DNA of 64,000 nt. It comes from Streptomyces sp. NBC_01351 (GTDB lineage: Bacteria > Actinomycetota > Actinomycetes > Streptomycetales > Streptomycetaceae). The notes below the pieces were generated by a model. The model had not been told where the DNA came from and made no database searches. It worked only from the letters and a program-made list of their open reading frames with translations. Positions 48,721 through 58,576 of the stretch are shown here, one piece after another; the first letter of the stretch is position 1; each line of letters opens with the position of its first letter. Location of the stretch: positions 7,383,501 through 7,447,500 of the forward strand of contig NZ_CP108356.1 of NCBI RefSeq assembly GCF_036237315.1, read 5' to 3'. Both the position numbers and the translations under genes were made by a program.

Positions 48721-49700
48721 TGGGGGAGCCTTCCGGCCGGGAAGGGGCCTCCGGCCGCGAAGGGGGCTCCGGTCGCCCCTCGGACCTGCGGGGGAAACAG
48801 ATCGCCGGGTACCTGGTGGAGAGCGAGATCGGGCGCGGCGGCATGGCGGTCGTCTACCGGGCGAAGGACCTGCGGCTCGACCGGACGGTGGCGCTCAAGC
48901 TGCTGGCGCCCCAGCTGGCGCGCAACGACACCTTCCGGCAGCGGTTCGTCCACGAGTCCAAGGTGGCCGCGGCCATCGACCACCCGCACATCGTCCCCGT
49001 GTTCGAGGCGGGGGAGACCGAAGGGCTGCTGTACATCGCCATGCGCTACGTGGCCGGGGAGGACCTGCGGGCGATGCTCGACCGGACGGGCCCGCTGTCG
49101 ATGGAGACGGCCGCCCGGATCGCCGGGCAGGTGGCCTCGGCGCTGGACGCGGCGCACGACCACGGGCTGGTGCACCGCGACGTGAAGCCGGGCAACATCC
49201 TGGTCGCGCGCGGCACCGACAGCGAGCACCCGGAGCACGTGTACCTCACGGACTTCGGGCTGACCAAGAAGTCGCTGTCGCTGACCGGCTTCACGACGGC
49301 CGGGCAGTTCGTCGGGACCCTGGACTACGTGGCCCCGGAACAGATCTGGGGGAAGCCGGTGGACGGCCGGTGCGACGTCTACAGCCTGGGCTGCGTCGTC
49401 TACGAGACCCTGTCGGGCGCGCCGCCCTTCCGGCGCGACGACGACATGGCCCTGCTCTGGGCCCACCAGTACGATCCGCCGCCCCCGCTGAGCTCCCTGA
49501 GGCCGGGCCTGCCGGCGGCGGTGGACGCGGTACTGGCGAAGGCCCTGGCCAAATCGCCGGAGGACCGCTGGGACACCTGCCTGGAGTTCACCGGAGCCCT
49601 CCGCCACGCGGACACCCCGAAGCCGAAGCGAGCGGCCGCCGGACCGCCCTCCGCGCCGCCGGAGCCGCCGGGCTGGGCGCTGCCGGTGTTCCGGCGGTGA
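48720..49700 (+). CDS. Ser/Thr protein kinase of FHA-ABC operon
   Basis: 326 residues; the ATG at 48720 shares its A with the upstream TGA (TGATG). A Gly/Arg-rich head precedes a full kinase domain: ESEIGRGGMAVVYRAKDL (P-loop), TVALKLL (Lys), VHRDVKPGNILVARG, YLTDFGLTKKSLS and GTLDYVAPEQIWG (activation segment and APE). The domain ends ~300 and there is no transmembrane helix or external domain, unlike the PknF group. By position it is the likely kinase that phosphorylates the FHA exporter or its partners. The C-terminal 25 residues are Pro/Ala-rich. Confidence 0.95.
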   Translation: MGEPSGREGASGREGGSGRPSDLRGKQIAGYLVESEIGRGGMAVVYRAKDLRLDRTVALKLLAPQLARNDTFRQRFVHESKVAAAIDHPHIVPVFEAGETEGLLYIAMRYVAGEDLRAMLDRTGPLSMETAARIAGQVASALDAAHDHGLVHRDVKPGNILVARGTDSEHPEHVYLTDFGLTKKSLSLTGFTTAGQFVGTLDYVAPEQIWGKPVDGRCDVYSLGCVVYETLSGAPPFRRDDDMALLWAHQYDPPPPLSSLRPGLPAAVDAVLAKALAKSPEDRWDTCLEFTGALRHADTPKPKRAAAGPPSAPPEPPGWALPVFRR

Positions 49701-49730
49701 GGGGGCCGCGCCTTCCGGGGCGGGGCCGGG

Positions 49731-49775
49731 TGCGCGTGGGCCGGCCCGGCCGATGCGCGTGGGCCGGCCCGGCCG
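49731..49775. repeat. 22-base tandem duplication next to hairpin repeat
   Basis: TGCGCGTGGGCCGGCCCGGC plus CG occurs at 49731-49752 and again at 49754-49775, separated by one base. The second copy runs into the long palindrome that starts at 49766. Confidence 0.75.
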
Positions 49776-49920
49776 TGGCCGGGCGCGCGCCGGGGCGTCT
49801 CCTCGGGCGTCGAACGTGTCGGGGGGTCGGTGGGCCGAGGGTGGTTGTGTTCGACGCCCTGTGGGGACGCCCCGCCACACACCCGGCCCCGTCCGGGCCT
49901 GCGGGGACCGGACTGAGCCG
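49766..49920. repeat. long palindromic intergenic repeat, copy A
   Basis: The arms 49766-49815 and 49849-49899 are inverted copies around a 33-base loop. The inner part is GGGCGTCGAAC (49805-49815) paired perfectly with GTTCGACGCCC (49849-49859); next is CGGGGCGTC (49791-49799) with GACGCCCCG (49866-49874); the outer part continues with some mismatches. It is nearly identical to 57538-57692 and fills the 227-base gap between convergent genes (stops at 49700 and 49928). A bidirectional terminator role is possible. Confidence 0.85.
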
Positions 49921-49927
49921 GGGCAAG

Positions 49928-51220
49928 TCAGGGGGTCGGCTGCGTGGCCGCGGCCGGGTCGTCCACGCGGCCGCGGCGGTGCAGGGGGCGGGCCAGGAGG
50001 GCGCCGAGGAAGCCGGCCACCGCGCCCCAGAGGAGGCCGAGGCCGACCGTGCGCCACAGGACCGGGGCGAGTTCGACCGTGCCGCCCAGGCCGTCCACGT
50101 CGCCGAGGCCCAGGAGCGAGAGGCCGAACTGGGCCTGAATCCCGACGAGCAGACAGACCGTCAGGGTCGCCAGGCCCAGCGCCACGCCCAAGTGGAGCGC
50201 GTGCTGCCAGGGGCGTACGTGGGCGGGGGAGCGTACGGCCGCCAGGACGCCGGTGCCGAGCAGCAGGACGGCTGCCACCACCACCAGCCACCAGGCCCGG
50301 GCGTCCCGCTCGGCGAGCGAGGCCACGTCGATCGTGGAGAGGTCCGGGCCGCGCAGGACCTGGTCCAGGAGCTGCGGCATCGGCAGTCCGAAGGGGCCCT
50401 CGACCTTGCCCTCCCAGGCGCCGCCGAAGCCCAGGGTGAGCGCCAACCACATCAGGTTGGGCAGCCCCAGCAGGATCACGGCGAAGGTCCGCCCGGCATG
50501 GCCCTGGGTGGCCGCCACCACGATGCCGACACCGATGCCGAGCACCACGTACGCGAGGAGCAGCGCGACGGTGGCGAAGGCGGCGGGGCGCAGCGCCGTG
50601 TGGAAGCGGACCAGGCGGGCCGGGAGCGGGGCGCGGCGCGAGACCAGCAGGGCCACCAGCAACAGGCCGAGGATCCACAGGAGTCCGTACAGGAGCGTGG
50701 CGGGCAGGTCGCCCTCGAAGCCCACCGTCGGGGAGGAGTCGAGTAGTTCGCCGAGCTCGCCCAGGGGATTGTCCCCGGTGTCGATGGCGAAGGTCTGGCG
50801 GGCGAGCAGCGTCGCGCCGGTGAGTGCGAGGAGCCAGAGCACCACCAACGGGACGGCCCTGCCGAGGAGTTCGCGAGGCCGGGCCACCGCCCGGTTGTGC
50901 AGGGGGCGCAGGAAGCAGTAGCCGGCCGTGAGGGCGCCGGCCAGGCTCACCGAGAGCGGGAGCACGGACAGGCTCGCGTCCGCGTCCGCCAGGAATCCCG
51001 CGCTGCCCGTCACCTCGACGGAGCCGCCGGCCGCCATCACGACCACGGCGGCGACGACCCGGGGGAACGCGCCGCCCGGCAGGTCGCCCGCGCCGGCACA
51101 GGCCAGCCCGGCCGCGGCGACGGCGGCCATTACCGCGAAGGCGGCCAGGACCGTCAGGAAGGCGTCGCGCAGTGCCCCCGCGGAGCTCCCCGGCGATGGT
51201 GATCTCGTCGTATGGCTCAC
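49928..51220 (-). CDS. streptophobe-type polytopic membrane protein
   Basis: 430 residues from GTG 51220 (SHTTRSPSP...); the ribosome site is weak. About ten hydrophobic helices cover the whole length, separated by short loops (for example AFLTVLAAFAVMAAVAAAGL, VPLVVLWLLALTGATLLARQ, FATVALLLAYVVLGIGVGIV). I recognise the general pattern as the Streptomyces 'streptophobe' family, named for hydrophobicity, with no known function. No catalytic motif seen. Its stop is 28 bases from the edge of palindromic repeat A. Divergent from the DUF6777-like gene. Confidence 0.82.
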   Translation of the reverse strand: MSHTTRSPSPGSSAGALRDAFLTVLAAFAVMAAVAAAGLACAGAGDLPGGAFPRVVAAVVVMAAGGSVEVTGSAGFLADADASLSVLPLSVSLAGALTAGYCFLRPLHNRAVARPRELLGRAVPLVVLWLLALTGATLLARQTFAIDTGDNPLGELGELLDSSPTVGFEGDLPATLLYGLLWILGLLLVALLVSRRAPLPARLVRFHTALRPAAFATVALLLAYVVLGIGVGIVVAATQGHAGRTFAVILLGLPNLMWLALTLGFGGAWEGKVEGPFGLPMPQLLDQVLRGPDLSTIDVASLAERDARAWWLVVVAAVLLLGTGVLAAVRSPAHVRPWQHALHLGVALGLATLTVCLLVGIQAQFGLSLLGLGDVDGLGGTVELAPVLWRTVGLGLLWGAVAGFLGALLARPLHRRGRVDDPAAATQPTP

Positions 51221-51314
51221 CCTGCCACCGTAGGCAGCCTCGGCTTGCGAGCACCACCTGAACGGCGCACACAATGGTCCGGCAGGGAACTCCTCCTCCT
51301 GGGAAGAAGAGCCC

Positions 51315-52862
51315 GTGACCACGCAACCTTCCGGCCAGCAGCCGCCGTCACCAGATCGCCCGTCGGTGCCGCCGTCCGGCCGCCCCACGGGGCCGCCGTC
51401 GGGCCCGCTCTCGGGCGGGCAGCAGGGACCCCCGCCACCTCCTCCGCCGTCCGCGCCCCCCGGTGGGCCGGGTGCACCCGGTGGCCCGGGTGGCCCCGGT
51501 GACCAGCCGAAGGGCCCGTGGTGGCGATCCGTACCCCGGCTCGCCACCGCGCTCGTCGCCGTGGCGGTCGCCGTGGCCCTGGCCGTGGTCCTGACCCGGC
51601 CCAGCGGCACCAGTAACCAGGCCGACCGCGAGGTGTTCCTCCAGCCGGTCGCCGCCTCCGGACCCGACCCGTTCACGGCGTCGACCGCCACGAAGGAGGC
51701 CACGCCGCCGCCGGAGAGCCCACCGCCCTCACCGGAGGGCACCGCCACGGGCACGCAGACGGGTACCCGGAGCGTGAACGGCGCCTCGCCGGGCGTGTAC
51801 GGGGGCACCAACAACGCCGCCAGCTGTGACGTGGAGAAGCAGATCAAGCTGCTGGCGGCGGAGCCCGCCAAGAACAGCGCCTTCGCCTCGGCCCTCGGCA
51901 TCCAGCCCGCGGCCGTCCCCGCGTACCTCCGCTCGCTCACCCCGGTACAGCTGCGGCTGGACACCCGGGTCACGAACCACGGCTACCAGGACGGCAAGGT
52001 CACCAGCTACCAGGCCGTGCTCCAGGCCGGGACGGCCGTGCTGGTGGACGACCGCGGGGTGCCGCGGGTGCGCTGCGCCTGCGGGAACCCGCTGGGGCCG
52101 CCGGTGGCGCTGCAGGCCAACCCGAAGCGCTACGGGCAGGTGTGGAACTCGTACCAGCCGACCCGTGTCGTGGTCATCGCGCCGTCGGTGACCATCGTGA
52201 ACAAGTTCGTGATCTACGACCAGCGTGACCGGCACTGGTACGAGCGCGACCGCGGCGACCACCACGGCAAGCGCGACAGGCCGGTCCCGCCGCCGGTGAT
52301 CCCGACGCCGATCTTCACGCCGACCGGGACCCCGACCCCGACCTCGACCTCGACGCTGGATCCGCGGTCTCCGACCCCGTCCGTGTCGCCGACGTCGCCG
52401 ACTCCGTCGGTCTCGCCGACGGGAACCGCATCGCCCACGGAATCGCCTTCCGAGTCCCCCTCCGAGTCCCCCTCCGAGTCCCCTTCGGTATCCCCGTCGG
52501 AGTCCGGAACGGAATCGCCCTCTGAGTCCCCGTCCGAGTCCGCGTCGGTGTCTCCTTCGGTATCGCCGTCGGACACCCGAGCCCGGTCCGTCTCCCCGTC
52601 CGCGTGCCCGCCGGGCGGACCGACGACCGGACCCTGCCCGCCGGCCCCTTCCCTCTCGGTGACTCCGCAGCAGTCGGCCCAGCGGAGCCCGGCGGAACCA
52701 GCAACTCCGGCCCCGCCGACATCGGTGGCGCCGGAGCCCGAACCCCTGGTCACGGCGCGGCCTGAGCTGCCGCCCCCGCCGTCACCGACGCCGTCCGTGC
52801 TCGTCCGTCCCACGGAGGGCAGCGACGGAGGTGCCGGGAACGACGGAGGAACGCAGCAGTAG
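51315..52862 (+). CDS. DUF6777-like membrane-anchored protein with Ser/Pro-rich tail
   Basis: 515 residues from GTG 51315. A Pro/Gly/Ser-rich cytoplasmic head (~70 residues) is followed by one helix (LATALVAVAVAVALAVVLTR, about 75-95) and an extracytoplasmic domain (about 110-310): REVFLQPVAASGPDPFTAST, GVYGGTNNAASCDVEKQIKL, and CACGNPLGPPVALQ, in which Cys pairs are likely. The rest (310-515) is a long Ser/Pro/Thr stalk with repeats of SPSES. I associate the domain with DUF6777 from memory. Probably a surface protein spanning the cell wall; function unknown. Confidence 0.82.
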   Translation: MTTQPSGQQPPSPDRPSVPPSGRPTGPPSGPLSGGQQGPPPPPPPSAPPGGPGAPGGPGGPGDQPKGPWWRSVPRLATALVAVAVAVALAVVLTRPSGTSNQADREVFLQPVAASGPDPFTASTATKEATPPPESPPPSPEGTATGTQTGTRSVNGASPGVYGGTNNAASCDVEKQIKLLAAEPAKNSAFASALGIQPAAVPAYLRSLTPVQLRLDTRVTNHGYQDGKVTSYQAVLQAGTAVLVDDRGVPRVRCACGNPLGPPVALQANPKRYGQVWNSYQPTRVVVIAPSVTIVNKFVIYDQRDRHWYERDRGDHHGKRDRPVPPPVIPTPIFTPTGTPTPTSTSTLDPRSPTPSVSPTSPTPSVSPTGTASPTESPSESPSESPSESPSVSPSESGTESPSESPSESASVSPSVSPSDTRARSVSPSACPPGGPTTGPCPPAPSLSVTPQQSAQRSPAEPATPAPPTSVAPEPEPLVTARPELPPPPSPTPSVLVRPTEGSDGGAGNDGGTQQ

Positions 52863-52873
52863 CCGGATCGGTC

Positions 52874-52912
52874 CCGGTCGCGACGGGTGAACGACTCACC
52901 CGCCGCGACCGG
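52874..52912. terminator. bidirectional hairpin between convergent genes
   Basis: CCGGTCGCG-A-CGGGTGA (52874-52890) pairs with TCACCCG-C-CGCGACCGG (52896-52912), a 16-bp stem with one mismatch and a 5-base loop, between the convergent stops at 52862 and 52921. Confidence 0.75.
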
Positions 52913-52920
52913 CGTCGTGC

Positions 52921-53844
52921 CTAGCGCACCCGGCCGTAGATGTTCGGGTTGTAGGCGCTGAAGCTGGAGATGCGGACGTTCCTGCCCGGGCGGGGGGCCT
53001 CCAGGTACTGGCCGTTGCCGAGGTAGATCGCCACGTGGTGGATCCCGGACGCCGAGCCGTTCGAGGACCAGAACACCAGGTCGCCGCGGCGCAGGTCGGA
53101 GCGGGAGATCGGGGTGGTGGCCCGGTACTGGTCGGAGGCGACGCGGGGGAGGGACATCCCGGCGCTGCGGTAGGCGGCCTGGATCAGGCCTGAGCAGTCC
53201 CAGCCGTTGGGGCCGTTGCCGCCCCAGACGTACGGGTCGCCGAGCTGAGCGTTGGCGAAGGAGATGGCGCCCTCGGTGCCCTGCCGCACCGGGGTCCCGG
53301 AGCCGGTTGAACCGGAGGAGCCGGAAGAGCCCGAGGAGCCGGAGCCGCCGGTCGAGCCTCCCGAACGGCCCGCGTTGCGCTCGTACTTGTCGCGGTGGCT
53401 CGTCCAACGCCACCGGCCGGTGGCGTCCTTGTACCAGTAGACGCGGTCGGTGGCGTCCCAGCCCGCGCGGCCGCGGAACGTCGGCTCGGAGGTCCGTACC
53501 GTCGACGCCGAGCCGGCCGAGGCGGTGGAGCCCTTGCCCGACCCGCCCGATCGGCCGGTCTTCGCCAGGTACTTGTCGTGGTGCGAGGTCCAGCGCCACC
53601 AGCCGGTCTCGTCCTTGTACCAGTACTTCGAGCCGTCCCAGCCCGCGTGGGCAGGGGCCGGCTCGGCCGACGCGGTGCCCGCGCCGGCGCCCATCAGGAG
53701 GGTCGCGCCGATGGCGGCGACCACGGCCCCGCGCAGCGTGCAGCGGCGGCGGGCGGCGGAGGCCGTCACCGCCGTCGTACCGCCGGCGCAGCCGGTGCAG
53801 TCACAGCTGTCGGGTATTTCTTCGGTGAACTCGGGCGTGCGCAT
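52921..53844 (-). CDS. secreted NlpC/P60 peptidoglycan endopeptidase with tandem aromatic repeats
   Basis: 307 residues from ATG 53844, AAGGAATC about 7 bases upstream. A Cys-rich cytoplasmic head (CDCTGCAGG, ~18-26) precedes the signal-type helix (LRGAVVAAIGATLLMGAGAG, about 41-60) and an AxA site. Next are two copies of a tryptophan-rich repeat, YWYKDETGWWRWTSHHDKYL and YWYKDATGRWRWTSHRDKYE (about 79-98 and 135-155), then a Gly/Ser linker. The C-terminal NlpC/P60 domain (from ~190) has VWGGNGPNGWDCSGLIQAAY (catalytic Cys) and GIHHVAIYLGNGQYLEAP (His). It should cut peptidoglycan cross-links in the wall; the repeats may bind the wall or a partner. Confidence 0.93.
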   Translation of the reverse strand: MRTPEFTEEIPDSCDCTGCAGGTTAVTASAARRRCTLRGAVVAAIGATLLMGAGAGTASAEPAPAHAGWDGSKYWYKDETGWWRWTSHHDKYLAKTGRSGGSGKGSTASAGSASTVRTSEPTFRGRAGWDATDRVYWYKDATGRWRWTSHRDKYERNAGRSGGSTGGSGSSGSSGSSGSTGSGTPVRQGTEGAISFANAQLGDPYVWGGNGPNGWDCSGLIQAAYRSAGMSLPRVASDQYRATTPISRSDLRRGDLVFWSSNGSASGIHHVAIYLGNGQYLEAPRPGRNVRISSFSAYNPNIYGRVR

Positions 53845-53876
53845 GCATGATTCCTTTTCCATCGGGGGTGTGTTGC

Positions 53877-55277
53877 TCAGCGGGCGTCGGCGGCAGGGCC
53901 GCGCGCCGTGTAGAAGGCCACGGTCAAGTCCTTGACCAGGGCCTTGCGTTCGTAGTCGTCCAGGCCCACGAGCCCGCGGTCGGACATCCGGTGGACGGTG
54001 TCGTCGACCGCGTCGAGGACGGAGGTGAGGACGGTGTCGCGGTGGCGGGCGTCGATCGCCGCGATCCGGCGGCGCTGCATCGCGGCGGCGACCTCCGGGG
54101 CGTACTCGACGTGCAGCGGCCGCGCGGAGAACACCTCGATGCCGACGGCCCGGCAATCGGCGGCGAGCAGCCGGGTCAGCTCCTCGCCGACGGCTTCGGT
54201 GTCGCGCAGGGTCTCCGGCTCGGCGCCGTCCGCCGGGCGGAAGGAGTCGGCCGGCATCCGCGAGAGCACCCGGGCGGTCGCGCACTCCACCTGTCCGCGC
54301 AGGTAGGAGGCGTGGTCGTCGACGGCGAGCAGTGCGCGGGCGGTGTCCTTGACCCGCCAGACGACGAGGACCACGGAGCGCAGGGCGGTGCCCTCGGAGT
54401 CCATGACGGACAGCGGCTCACTGCGCCAGTGCCGCAGCCGTACGTCGACCCGCGCGTGCCGCCGCAGCGGGCTGGACCAGAGGAGTCCGGTACGGCGGAT
54501 CGTGCCGCGGTAGCGGCCGAAGAGGGTCAGCGCCCACGCGTGCCCGGTGCGGCCGCGGCGCAGCCCGCCGAGGGCGAGGAGGGCGACGGCGGCGCAGGCC
54601 AGGAGCGCGGCGAGCGGCCAGGCCTCGGAGGGGGTGGTGGTGAGGCGGAGGTCCTCGTGGCGCGCCAGGGCCGCGGCGCCGCCCGCGGCGAGCATTGCGG
54701 CCGCCAGGGCCCACCAGCCGGAACAGACCCGGGCGGGGCGCTCGGCGAGCTCGGCGTCGAGGACGGGCGGCAGGGTCCGTGCGCGGGCCGTGGCCGGGTC
54801 GGCGGAGGCAGGTGAGGCCGGGGAGGCCGGGGAGGCGGGAAAGGCCGGGCTGGGTCGGCCGGGGAAGGCGGGAGACGCCGGGGAGGCCGGGGGCGCCGGG
54901 GAGGCCGGGCCGGATCGGCCGGGGAAGGCCGGAGACGCCGGGGAGGCCGGGCCGGGCCGGGGTATGGCGCCGTCGGCCGCAGGTTGCCGGAGGGTGTCCG
55001 GGCCGTCGCGATCGCTGTCGGCGGGGGCCGGCTGCTCGTCGCGGAACAGCGGGGCCATGACGATCGGGTCCCGGTAGGGCCGGACGACCACACCGCGCGA
55101 GGCGGCGAGTGCGACGGGTATCCGCCCGGGCTCCGAGCCCTCGTCGGCCGCCGTCTCCCCGTCGTGTTTCCCCTCGCACTCCACTTCCTCGCCCGGCCCT
55201 CCGGTCGTCTTCGCCGCTTGCGACAAACCACACCCCACACAGCCATGGGCCCCAACGGCCCCGTGTCGGAGGGCCAT
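53877..55277 (-). CDS. SPFH/band-7 domain protein
   Basis: 466 residues from ATG 55277; the first residues look poor, and a TTG at 55226 (SQAAKTTGGPG...) is an alternative, so the start is uncertain. A disordered Pro/Ala region (about 85-160) with PASPAFPGR-type repeats precedes two hydrophobic helices (about 178-225). The C-terminal SPFH domain has IRRTGLLWSSPLRRHARVDV, VVLVVWRVKDTARALLAVDD, ECATARVLSRMPADSF and GIEVFSARPLHVEYAPEVAA. SPFH proteins form membrane microdomain scaffolds and interact with proteases. Follows the phosphatase divergent promoter; 32 bases separate it from the NlpC/P60 gene downstream. Confidence 0.88.
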   Translation of the reverse strand: MALRHGAVGAHGCVGCGLSQAAKTTGGPGEEVECEGKHDGETAADEGSEPGRIPVALAASRGVVVRPYRDPIVMAPLFRDEQPAPADSDRDGPDTLRQPAADGAIPRPGPASPASPAFPGRSGPASPAPPASPASPAFPGRPSPAFPASPASPASPASADPATARARTLPPVLDAELAERPARVCSGWWALAAAMLAAGGAAALARHEDLRLTTTPSEAWPLAALLACAAVALLALGGLRRGRTGHAWALTLFGRYRGTIRRTGLLWSSPLRRHARVDVRLRHWRSEPLSVMDSEGTALRSVVLVVWRVKDTARALLAVDDHASYLRGQVECATARVLSRMPADSFRPADGAEPETLRDTEAVGEELTRLLAADCRAVGIEVFSARPLHVEYAPEVAAAMQRRRIAAIDARHRDTVLTSVLDAVDDTVHRMSDRGLVGLDDYERKALVKDLTVAFYTARGPAADAR

Positions 55278-55343
55278 TGACGCCGCAATAGATGATCAAG
55301 AACTGATTGATCTTCGCGGAATCGTACAAGCGAGACATACGGG

Positions 55344-55379
55344 AAAGGTCCCGACAGGCCGGGACTTTGGTCCTTTTTC
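55344..55379 (+). terminator. hairpin plus T-tract in leader of phosphatase gene
   Basis: AAAGGTCCCG (55344-55353) and CGGGACTTT (55360-55368) form a stem with one bulged G, followed closely by GGTCCTTTTTC. A stem with a T run is unusual in this genome and lies 44 bases before the phosphatase start, so it may be a leader attenuator rather than a gene-end terminator. Confidence 0.5.
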
Positions 55380-55422
55380 ATGTCGATATGACCGGACGAC
55401 TGGAGGGTGAGACCCTGGCTGC

Positions 55423-57477
55423 ATGGCCCAGAGGGGAAGGAACCCCGAGGTCGACTGGCCCGCGCGGCCGGACACGAGCCTTGCGCTCAACCGCATGGGC
55501 ACCTTCGACTGGGACCTCGACAGCGGTCGGATGCACCTCGATCCCACCGCGCTGGAGGTCCTCGACCTGCGCCCGGACGAGTTCACCGGGACCCCCGCCG
55601 GACTGCGCTCGCGCATCCCGCCGGCCGAGGAGGCCCGGCTCGACGCCCGCGTCGCGCAGGCGCTCAAGGACGGCCGCAGCCACTACGGGGCGTACGTGCG
55701 CAGCCGCCACCGGGACGGATCACCGGCCTGGACCCACATCCAGGGGCACATCCTGCGGGATCCGAGCGGCCGCCCCTACCGCATCATCGGCATCCTGCGC
55801 GACGCCGCCCACGACCCCGGCGAGCCCGGCGCGGCCGGGGAGCAGGCCGAGGGACGGCGCCGCATGACCGGGGTCGTCGAGCGGACCACCGCGATCCTCG
55901 CCCACGCCCGCACCGTCAACGACGTGACCGACGTCCTCAAGGACCCCGAGGCCCTCGGGCACCTCGGCGCGGTCAGCGTGATGCTCGGCGTCGTCGACGG
56001 CGGCCGCATCCACCTCGTCGCGGAGGGGCAGCTGGGCTCGTACGTGCCCGAGATCGAGTACACGCGGATCGACGCGGAGCTGCCGATGAGCGAGGCCGTA
56101 CGCAGCATGCAGCCGGTCTACCTGGCCGCGCGGGAGGAGTTCCGGCGCCGCTACCCGCAGCTGTGGCCGTACATCGAGCCGCTGTCCGTGCGCAGTGGGG
56201 TCTACCTGCCGCTGATCGCCCAGGGCAGGGTCATCGGCGCGCTCGGACTGCTCTACACGCGCGAGGGCGAATTCACCGCCGAGGAGCGGAACCTGCTCAT
56301 GGCGCTCGGCAGCGGGATCGCCCAGAGCCTCCAGCGGGCCATCCTCTTCGAGCAGGAGCACGACCTGGCGGAGGGCCTCCAACGGGCCATGCTGCCCCGC
56401 CGGATCCCCGAGGTGCCGGGCGCGCTGATCGCCGTGCGGTACCGGTCCGCGCGGATGGGGCGGGACATCGGCGGCGACTGGTACGACGTGATCCCGCTCG
56501 GCGAGGGCCGGGTCGGGGTGATGATCGGCGACGTGGAGGGGCACGACACGGACGCCGCCGCCGTCATGGGCCAGCTGCGCATCGTGCTCCGCGCGTACAT
56601 CGTCGAGGGGCACACCCCGGGCACCGCGATGTCCCGGGCCTCGGCCTTCCTGCGGGAGCTTGCCACGGAGCGCTTCGCCACCTGCACCTACGTCGAAGTG
56701 GACCTCACCACGGGCATGCTCCGGATGGTCCGCGCCGGCCACCTCGACCCGATCGTCCGGCGCGGCGACGGCAGCTGCCACCGCATCCAGGTGGCGGGCG
56801 GACTTCCGCTCGGACTGCCCCCGCGCGAGCAGGAGGGGAGCGGCTCCGGCTACCCCGTCACCAGCCTCGAACTGCACCCGGGCGACACGCTGCTGCTGTG
56901 CACGGACGGCCTGATCGAACGGCCTGGCGCGGACCCCGACAGCGGGATGCGGGAGCTGATGGCGGCGGTCCACGGCGGCCCCGTCGACGTGGAGGAACTC
57001 GCCGACGTGCTGTGCGACCTCGTCGGGGACTCGGGCGGCGGGGACGACATGGCCCTGCTCCTGCTGCGCCGCCGCGGCACGCCCGCGCCGCGCGGCGGCG
57101 GCCCGCTGCGCCACCGGCTGGAACCGGGCGACACGGAGGCCCCGGCGATGGCCCGCCACCTGATCCGGGCGGCGGCGGCCGCGTGGGGCGCGCGGGACCG
57201 GGCCGACGAGATCGAACTGGCCGCGGACGAGTTGATGACGAACGCCCTCGTCCACACGGACGGCGGCGGTCACGTCAGCATGAGGCTCACGGCGGACGGC
57301 CGGATCCGGATCGAGGTCGAGGACTCCAGCAGCGCCCTGCCGAGGCGCCGCGAGGCGGGGGACTGGGAGGTGTCCGGGCGCGGCCTGATGCTGGTGGACC
57401 GGCTCTCGGACCAGTGGGGCGTGGAGCCTCGGGGCGGCGGGAAGTGCGTGTGGTGCGAGTTTGCGGTGGCAGGGTGA
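55423..57477 (+). CDS. PAS/GAF/SpoIIE phosphatase with C-terminal HATPase domain
   Basis: 684 residues from ATG 55423. Domains in order: PAS-like (about 25-125: TFDWDLDSGRMHLDPTALEV, THIQGHILRDPSGRPYRIIG), GAF (about 150-310: VYLPLIAQGRVIGALGLLYT), SpoIIE/PP2C phosphatase (about 325-545: DIGGDWYDVIPLGEGRVGVM and IGDVEGHDTDAAAVMGQLRI, with metal-binding Asp, and DDMALLLL at the end) and a HATPase_c_2 anti-sigma type domain (about 560-680: IELAADELMTNALVHTDGGG and GRGLMLVDRLSDQWG). Such proteins dephosphorylate anti-anti-sigma factors and can also act as kinase on them, controlling alternative sigma factors. Input is sensed by PAS/GAF. Target proteins are not adjacent. Confidence 0.95.
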   Translation: MAQRGRNPEVDWPARPDTSLALNRMGTFDWDLDSGRMHLDPTALEVLDLRPDEFTGTPAGLRSRIPPAEEARLDARVAQALKDGRSHYGAYVRSRHRDGSPAWTHIQGHILRDPSGRPYRIIGILRDAAHDPGEPGAAGEQAEGRRRMTGVVERTTAILAHARTVNDVTDVLKDPEALGHLGAVSVMLGVVDGGRIHLVAEGQLGSYVPEIEYTRIDAELPMSEAVRSMQPVYLAAREEFRRRYPQLWPYIEPLSVRSGVYLPLIAQGRVIGALGLLYTREGEFTAEERNLLMALGSGIAQSLQRAILFEQEHDLAEGLQRAMLPRRIPEVPGALIAVRYRSARMGRDIGGDWYDVIPLGEGRVGVMIGDVEGHDTDAAAVMGQLRIVLRAYIVEGHTPGTAMSRASAFLRELATERFATCTYVEVDLTTGMLRMVRAGHLDPIVRRGDGSCHRIQVAGGLPLGLPPREQEGSGSGYPVTSLELHPGDTLLLCTDGLIERPGADPDSGMRELMAAVHGGPVDVEELADVLCDLVGDSGGGDDMALLLLRRRGTPAPRGGGPLRHRLEPGDTEAPAMARHLIRAAAAAWGARDRADEIELAADELMTNALVHTDGGGHVSMRLTADGRIRIEVEDSSSALPRRREAGDWEVSGRGLMLVDRLSDQWGVEPRGGGKCVWCEFAVAG

Positions 57478-57537
57478 GGCAGGGCCGGGCCGGGCAGGGC
57501 CGGGGCCGGCCCGGCGGGGGTGGGGTCGGGGGTTGCC

Positions 57538-57692
57538 GGCCCGGCCGTGGCCGGGCGCGCGCCGGGGCGTCTCCTCGGGCGTCGAACGTGGCGAGGGGTC
57601 GGTGGGCCGAGTGTGGTTGCGTTCGACGCCCTGCGGGGACGCCCCACCGCACACCCGGCCCCGTCCGGACCGGCGGGCACCGGTCTGAACTG
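57538..57692. repeat. long palindromic intergenic repeat, copy B
   Basis: Near-identical to copy A at 49766: the first 53 bases match exactly and arm and loop lengths agree. Arms are 57538-57587 and 57621-57671. The inner stem GGGCGTCGAAC (57577-57587) pairs perfectly with GTTCGACGCCC (57621-57631). It fills the gap between convergent genes (stops at 57477 and 57704). Confidence 0.85.
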
Positions 57693-57703
57693 GGGGAAAC
57701 GGT

Positions 57704-58576
57704 TTAGACGGAGGCGTACGGGCCCTGGGCGGCCTTGGTGTTCTGCATGGCCGTGAGCTTGCGGACGAAGACGATGGCGAGTACCGCGGCGGCCACCATG
57801 AGGAGGTCGGAGACGAAACCGACCGATGAGGCGGTCTGCAGGGCCTCGGGGGTCTCGGCCTTCTTGTACAGCTGGGCGAAGATCCGGTCGGAGATCGCCG
57901 CGAGGACCCAGACCACCCACCAGCTCACGACCGGCGCGGTGGAGACGCGGCGGTGGGAGCCGTCCGGTGCCAGCTGGGTGCTGGCCGCCCAGATGTCCAC
58001 CGCGGTGCGGAACGGGAAGAACAGGTTGGCGAGGGGGATGAACCAGCCGCCGATGGCCCAGCCGCGGGTCTGGGTGAAGCCGTCGTGGCGGAAGATCTCG
58101 CCGTTGACGCGCACGCGGTAGAACCAGGTGATGAAGACGGCCGCCGTGCCGACCAAGGCCAGCAGCTGGAGGCTCCCGGCCACGCCGGTCAAGACGTCCG
58201 ACAGGTCCAGCGAGCTGTCCGAGACCTTGTCGGGGTCCGCGATCAGGTCCGTCATCAGGGACCGGGCGAACAGGTTGGCGCCGGACGAGAAGAGGTTGAC
58301 CGCCGCGGCGAGGCTCAGCAGGACCGTCAGCGCGGTCGCCAGGCCCTGCGGCGAGCGGAGCACGTCCACCGGCTGCAGCGGCGGCCCGGCGTACGGCGGC
58401 TGGCCGGGGTACGGGGCCTGGCCGGGGTACGGCTGTCCCTGGTAGGGCTGTGCCGGGTAAGGCTGGCCGGGATATGGCTGCCCGGCGCCGGGCTGCCCCG
58501 GGTAGGGGGCCGCTGCGTACGGCGGCTGAGCGGGCTGCTGCTGCGGCGGCGGTGAGCCGGGCGTGCTGAAGGACAT
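57704..58576 (-). CDS. DUF4328 membrane protein
   Basis: 290 residues from ATG 58576. The head (to ~65) is a Pro/Tyr/Gly/Gln-rich repeat (AAPYPGQPGAGQPYPGQPYP and so on), and four to five helices follow (ALTVLLSLAAAVNLFSSGAN, LQLLALVGTAAVFITWFYRV, SWWVVWVLAAISDRIF, VSDLLMVAAAVLAIVFVRKL). GWAIGGWFIPLANLFFPFRT is the family's conserved central part. DUF4328 proteins are actinobacterial and of unknown function. Convergent with the phosphatase gene across repeat B; 94 bases downstream of modBC on the same strand. Confidence 0.9.
   Translation of the reverse strand: MSFSTPGSPPPQQQPAQPPYAAAPYPGQPGAGQPYPGQPYPAQPYQGQPYPGQAPYPGQPPYAGPPLQPVDVLRSPQGLATALTVLLSLAAAVNLFSSGANLFARSLMTDLIADPDKVSDSSLDLSDVLTGVAGSLQLLALVGTAAVFITWFYRVRVNGEIFRHDGFTQTRGWAIGGWFIPLANLFFPFRTAVDIWAASTQLAPDGSHRRVSTAPVVSWWVVWVLAAISDRIFAQLYKKAETPEALQTASSVGFVSDLLMVAAAVLAIVFVRKLTAMQNTKAAQGPYASV

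Follow-up and report, generated by a model that had tools for sequence, protein, structure and literature searches.

The window, the whole 64,000-nucleotide stretch of Streptomyces sp. NBC_01351 DNA that was analysed (C1:7383501–7447500 of an 8.9-Mb genome), yielded one 164-nt direct repeat in a repeat search, at 49763–49926 (copy 1, + strand, genome C1:7433263–7433426) and 57535–57698 (copy 2, + strand, genome C1:7441035–7441198), 7.8 kb apart and 91% identical. Convergent genes flank each copy, ending at 49700 (+) and 49928 (−) around copy 1 and at 57477 (+) and 57704 (−) around copy 2. Copy 1 stands between a gene for a protein kinase domain protein (PF00069; 48717–49700, +, predicted start, TGA stop) and a gene whose product had no Pfam match at E ≤ 1e-5 (49928–51130, −, predicted start, TGA stop). 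The neighbours of copy 2 encode a protein with PAS, GAF and SpoIIE phosphatase domains (55423–57477, +, TGA stop) and a DUF4328 protein (57704–58369, −, predicted start, TAA stop). Gene predictions throughout are approximate, having been made with a codon-usage script whose training set was 28 window ORFs. The inner stem of copy 1 pairs GGGCGTCGAACG (49805–49816) with 49848–49859, and its second stem pairs GGGGCGTCTCC (49792–49802) with GGGGACGCCCC (49863–49873); the internal-loop bases TC (49803–49804) directly follow the 5′ side of the second stem. The inner stem of copy 2 lies at 57577–57588 and 57620–57631 (all stems on the + strand). A reading of this DNA from sequence only had reported a near-identical palindromic repeat in two convergent gaps, and the search confirmed both the repeat and the stems described.

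On the minus strand, copies 1 and 2 fold better than 200/200 shuffles (z −4.5 and −5.9). Copy 2 likewise beats all shuffles on the plus strand (z −5.0), where the folding of copy 1 is unremarkable (z −0.9; 37/200 shuffles equally good). C-A pairs on the plus strand had been proposed to represent G-U pairs in minus-strand RNA. This holds for the subfamily that we call type B, to which both window copies belong (172 minus-type vs 56 plus-type wobbles, 45 copies), but not for type A (61 vs 51, 20 copies). One stem pair wobbles on the plus strand in every copy of the two types (65/65), so the wobbles do not fix the strand of the hairpin. No Rfam family matched the window at gathering score. A search for hairpins followed by a T tract returned seven terminator-like sites in 49500–58000, none of them within either element. 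Between the two copies, the window contains a terminator-like hairpin with a T run (55345–55374) and a G-rich degenerate repeat family (54797–54958).

Copies, subfamilies and insertion sites

The two window palindromes are members of a dispersed family of repeats, about seventy in this genome, that form hairpins. In a BLAST search against the genome itself, 40/40 scored candidates (of 243) were near-full-length matches with 87–100% identity. An oriented pattern allowing up to three mismatches found 67 copies (39 plus, 28 minus; one on contig C3) and its reversed control none, and a 5′-arm pattern found 86 matches against 4 for its reversed control. Outside the 67, two further two-armed hairpins lie near 2179793 and 6648076, and the 5′-arm scan also yielded some lone arms. 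The copies have a core of ~145 bp in common, more uniform than their outer ends, which diverge together with the flanks. A recent segmental duplication of one window stretch, with only two copies in existence, was part of the condition under which the sequence-only reading would have fallen. A near-identical pair 7.8 kb apart is what such an event would leave, but the 67 genome-wide copies with differing flanks refute it and leave it virtually no probability.

The outer ends sort the copies into 45 of type B and 20 of type A, with 2 unassigned; cores share a median identity of 92% among B copies and 87% among A copies. Type B sites comprise 24 convergent, 18 tandem and 2 divergent gaps and one unclear case. 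None of them (0/45) lies inside a predicted ORF, compared with 9/20 of type A (p = 5e-6). Convergent gaps hold 29 of the 55 clearly classified copies, tandem gaps 22; among background gene pairs, drawn from 464 kb of the same genome, 63/371 are convergent (p = 4e-8). Counted over all copies, TAG is over-represented among the stop codons that face the element from no more than 120 nt away (42/68), both against background genes (80/371, p = 1.6e-10) and against the stops of background convergent pairs (27/92, p = 5e-5); the window copies face TGA or TAA. Type B is a more uniform, probably younger subfamily at gene ends. In its bias towards convergent gaps and TAG stops, it bears out the preference for gene ends suggested earlier.

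The tetranucleotide CTAG occurs 60–150 nt 5′ of the core in 21/67 copies and 90–200 nt 3′ of it in 15/67, where about one is expected on each side, and near both edges in 6/67. Across the 67 copies, no consistent target duplication was found. An outer inverted repeat (p ≤ 0.02) was detected on the 5′ side of 17/67 copies (15 B, 1 A, 1 unassigned) and on the 3′ side of 10/67 (all B), counts that are partly circular, the probe having been picked out by eye in a subset of the same copies.

Orthologous sites were compared in related genomes. The site of copy 4660116 is empty in G083 and G167, with convergent stops 12 and 16 bases apart. Both stops at the empty G083 site are already TAG, so CTAG there is not a duplication. 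In G012, where gene order differs strongly, 1.2 Mb gave flank matches (some weak) for 13/67 sites and a comparison of both flanks for 4/67. Copy 7546395 corresponds there to a short gap, 79 bases between flank matches, without the element; both neighbour genes of window copy 1 are present, with other sequence between them in place of the element. At sites 2806354 and 1064454, G012 carries different CTAG-bounded palindromes beside the orthologous genes, and ten CTAG-bounded pairs occur in the 1.2 Mb. As an observation on that genome itself, its loci L190–L249 include two families of CTAG-bounded MITE-like palindromes, most of about 157–183 bp, with inverted ends GCCGTCTCTTTCGGATC and TGCTGTGACCGG (for example G012:C1:4697408–4697576 and 4580694–4580858); one neighbouring gene has this CTAG as its stop.

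These distributions bear on the bidirectional terminator that the sequence-only reading had put forward. A functional bidirectional terminator, or a hairpin that protects mRNA, retained in convergent gaps would account for the excess of convergent sites (29/55 vs 63/371, p = 4e-8) and for the stable folding of both window copies on the minus strand and of copy 2 on the plus strand. It accords poorly with the lack of a T-tract terminator call inside either window element, the 22/55 copies in tandem gaps, the 9/20 type A copies inside predicted ORFs and the compared sites in relatives from which the element is absent. A dedicated terminator role is not supported, and we regard it as very improbable; a terminator side-effect is possible.

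A further reading treats type B as a composite, in which a type A-like palindrome was captured by a TA- or CTAG-targeting MITE that a DDE transposase moves. In such genomes TA is rare outside stop codons, so capture would explain the gene-end habitat. The TAG excess at facing stops (42/68 vs 80/371 and 27/92), the CTAG enrichment (21/67 on the 5′ side, 15/67 on the 3′ side), the outer inverted repeats (17/67 and 10/67) and the CTAG-bounded MITE-like palindromes of G012, beside orthologous genes at two sites and with ten such pairs in 1.2 Mb, all point in this direction. Against it, a recognisable outer repeat is absent from most copies, by a probe count that is partly circular, both TAG stops are present at the empty G083 site, the window copies adjoin TGA or TAA stops, and the 5′-arm scan of the own genome found no insertion sequence with such ends. 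We consider capture a serious possibility, although the balance tilts away from it; it would refine, not replace, the mobile palindrome that we favour below.

With oriC placed near 4.216 Mb by dnaA and DnaA boxes, 48/66 chromosomal copies are co-directional with the replication fork (p = 0.0003), as are 34/44 of type B (p = 0.0004) and 13/20 of type A (p = 0.26). The bias is also present within convergent gaps (22/29, p = 0.008), so gene direction does not explain it. In nine other genomes no fork bias was seen (20/34 placed copies co-directional, p = 0.39; placed by hand, five G075/G227 copies on dnaA-less contigs excluded).

The Y1 transposases of IS200/IS605 and the RAYT proteins act on the single-stranded lagging-strand template. 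A REP/BIME element moved by such a tyrosine transposase would fit the fork co-direction (48/66 overall, 34/44 in type B), the hairpin with its conserved boxes and the inverted pairs ~170 bp apart in G070 and G204. Y1 genes were found in 5/11 pattern-bearing genomes and 4/29 others, but this excess falls short of significance (p = 0.08, or p = 0.10 with G070 moved from the 29 to the bearers), and 6/11 bearers have no Y1 match. The core motif was present in 0/12 distinct Y1 loci fetched with at least about 1.5 kb on each side (24 matches listed). The lack of fork bias in the nine other genomes (20/34) and in type A alone (13/20) and a unit far larger than 20–40 bp also speak against this mode of movement, which we consider unlikely.

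Conservation of the hairpin among Streptomyces

A strict stem pattern, which leaves the loop and two stem positions per side free, matched 11/392 Streptomyces genomes, own genome counted, and its reversed controls matched none. A covariance model (E ≤ 1e-4) detected related hairpins in at least 20/392 sampled genomes, again with the own genome counted, a lower bound set by scoring 10 candidates per genome. A loop-based pattern had matched 26/295 genomes and suggested a family confined to one species, its matches outside the own genome (1–2 each, 2–3 mismatches) being about equal to the reversed control; this picture was revised once the loop was left out of the pattern and the covariance model was run. 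Phage records held no match to the element, and plasmid records one partial match, from Streptomyces lavendulae (80% identity over 79% of the query). In the literature searched, mostly without subscription papers, we found no description of such a Streptomyces family, which is weak evidence of absence.

Covariation was assessed in 41 sequences from 11 genomes, in which 94.9% of pair cells are standard; pairing falls to 44–54% when the partner is shifted by 1–3 columns. Six pairs change on both sides, compared with 2.6 in shuffles (0/500 shuffles as high). Most stem positions are fixed by the search pattern, which leaves pairs 26–75 and 23–78 free on both sides. At columns 26–75, one and the same stem pair takes all four Watson-Crick forms between species (UA 14, CG 11, AU 9, GC 2, UG 1, unpaired 4). 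Measured by further pair types, the alignment does not exceed shuffles (137/500 as high). The loop measures 30–34 bases and varies between species, and the TC/TGC internal loop is conserved. This covariation shows that the hairpin is maintained, whether as DNA or RNA. The sequence-only reading had supposed a maintained structure, and compensatory substitutions between species indeed keep it.

Copies inside protein-coding genes

In the type A copies inside ORFs, the reading frame runs through the element, in linkers or tails, and 7/9 cases are fairly convincing; copies 2778315 and 5930005 are doubtful and were left out of the convincing set. Copy 5906321 has just 12 codons upstream, and a later start codon would put it outside the gene. 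Codons on either side of the element look coding in most cases, whereas the element itself scores as non-coding-like. The hosts include a polyketide synthase (in the linker after the ketosynthase), a DUF692 protein (MbnB/TglH/ChrH-like), a PucR regulator, a FecCD permease (at the N-terminus) and an RDD protein. In the five Pfam-matched hosts the element lies outside the domains, apart from ~4 residues that end one ketosynthase-associated match. Judged from sequence, the in-gene copies seem to be translated together with their host proteins. A sixth host (L055) is one long ORF that has no Pfam match and contains a near-identical type A pair in opposite orientations (C1:2381292 and 2382491); there the element is read on both strands, as follows from the opposite orientations.

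Several insertions are shared with orthologues. The DUF692 alignment covered 20 of 120 listed proteins, query included. Among the 19 relatives, the closest (Streptomyces sp. NPDC091371) has the translated element, 3/19 have an apparent degraded remnant and 15 are without it. RDD proteins of two other strains contain the element, and in G039 and G227 a polyketide synthase of the same kind has it at the same position. The PucR insertion is without orthologue support, because 0/19 aligned relatives carry the element.

Stop trimers in six frames number 0.22 (type B) and 0.35 (type A) per 146 nt, compared with 1.18 and 1.33 in dinucleotide shuffles, which makes stop trinucleotides on both strands about four to five times rarer than in the shuffles. 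Sequence beside type B copies has 2.7 per 146 nt, about twelve times the type B value of 0.22. The 23 elements of ten other genomes contain 12 stop trimers where 47 are expected. Per copy the depletion is not significant (on average 36% of shuffles are as low), and copies are non-independent.

A probable mobile palindrome and its known counterparts

The element is very probably a non-autonomous mobile palindrome, with a core of ~145 bp, whose family has spread in some Streptomyces. We infer movement from the dispersed copies, the empty sites and the patchy species distribution; the first two also agree with the earlier suggestion of a small mobile repeat with a preference for gene ends. The hairpin with its conserved TC/TGC internal loop would be recognised by an enzyme provided in trans, as the covarying stem suggests, perhaps in the form of folded single-stranded DNA. 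Insertions would survive where they are least harmful, behind stop codons or in flexible linkers; survival inside linkers is possible because few stop trinucleotides occur on either strand. The search for a mobilising gene found none, and neither Y1 co-occurrence nor the motif near Y1 loci gave support. The uniform core with variable outer ends is unpredicted by plain transposition and explicable by gene conversion.

We tentatively extend the mobile palindrome to one family with two habitats, a combination that we think rather doubtful as a whole. Type A, open in nearly all six frames, would enter the flexible linkers of ordinary proteins (polyketide synthases, a regulator and an MbnB/TglH-like enzyme) and turn into new protein sequence there. 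Type B, within a CTAG element that targets stop codons, would have expanded recently at sites behind genes, preferring one replication direction. Both would be mobilised by an undescribed enzyme acting on a folded single strand, and the family would keep providing Streptomyces with new protein linkers. It would also supply length variation in the linkers of natural-product enzymes. Frequent in-frame palindrome insertion is presented in reviews as a Rickettsia speciality (PMC10969869), and CGTC repeats are described as lacking a known transposase (PMC3733652). What moves palindromes, and what palindromes do to proteins, would become testable in a GC-rich, growable and engineerable host whose family spread recently, shares insertions inside genes with other strains and visibly decays.

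In behaviour, as distinct from family membership, the element appears most like the Rickettsia palindromic elements (RPE), palindromes of about 105–150 bp, many of which are described as lying in frame within genes (PMC10969869, PMC2229807, PMC3733652); RPE families counted as CGTC repeats are described as having no dedicated transposase (PMC3733652). The ~145-bp core, the 67 copies and the in-frame insertions (9/20 type A copies in predicted ORFs, some shared with orthologues) match this description. Host and GC content differ from those of RPE. Further differences are the second subfamily, which lies behind genes close to TAG stops and is biased in replication direction, and the covariation of the stem between species.

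The RUP element, a MITE, is linked to IS630. MITEs such as RUP and Correia are described as non-autonomous units of 70–300 bp near genes, with some in-frame fusions (PMC3733652, PMC2229807), and with terminal inverted repeats recognised by a transposase (PMC3733652). Unlike these, the present family has outer repeats in a minority of copies, and its 5′-arm scan found no parent element.

REP/BIME sequences are described as interspersed hairpins in high copy number that mostly lie behind genes and sometimes within them, often as inverted dimers (PMC3733652), and the present family is likewise a high-copy hairpin mostly behind genes and sometimes inside them. REPs measure 20–40 bp; CGTC types combine stems of 8–9 bp with loops of 4–5 bases, carry CGTC as a terminal tag and in most cases have a CCA tail (PMC3733652). 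The element differs in its 12-bp inner stem plus second stem and its loop of 30–34 bases, and CGTC lies inside the second stem instead of forming a terminal tag. Unlike GTAG REPs, no Y1 locus is flanked by the repeat (0/12 distinct loci, of 24 listed).

Two minor features of the genome adjoin the family. Matches resembling the 5′ arm at C1:3195208, 6203399 and 6815702 keep the CTCCTCGG box and have a different stem start; those at 3195208 and 6203399 are inverted ~170 bp from an element, resembling a BIME partner. At C1:7039215–7039424 and beside other copies, one arm is repeated in tandem on the 3′ side with a period of 40 bp.
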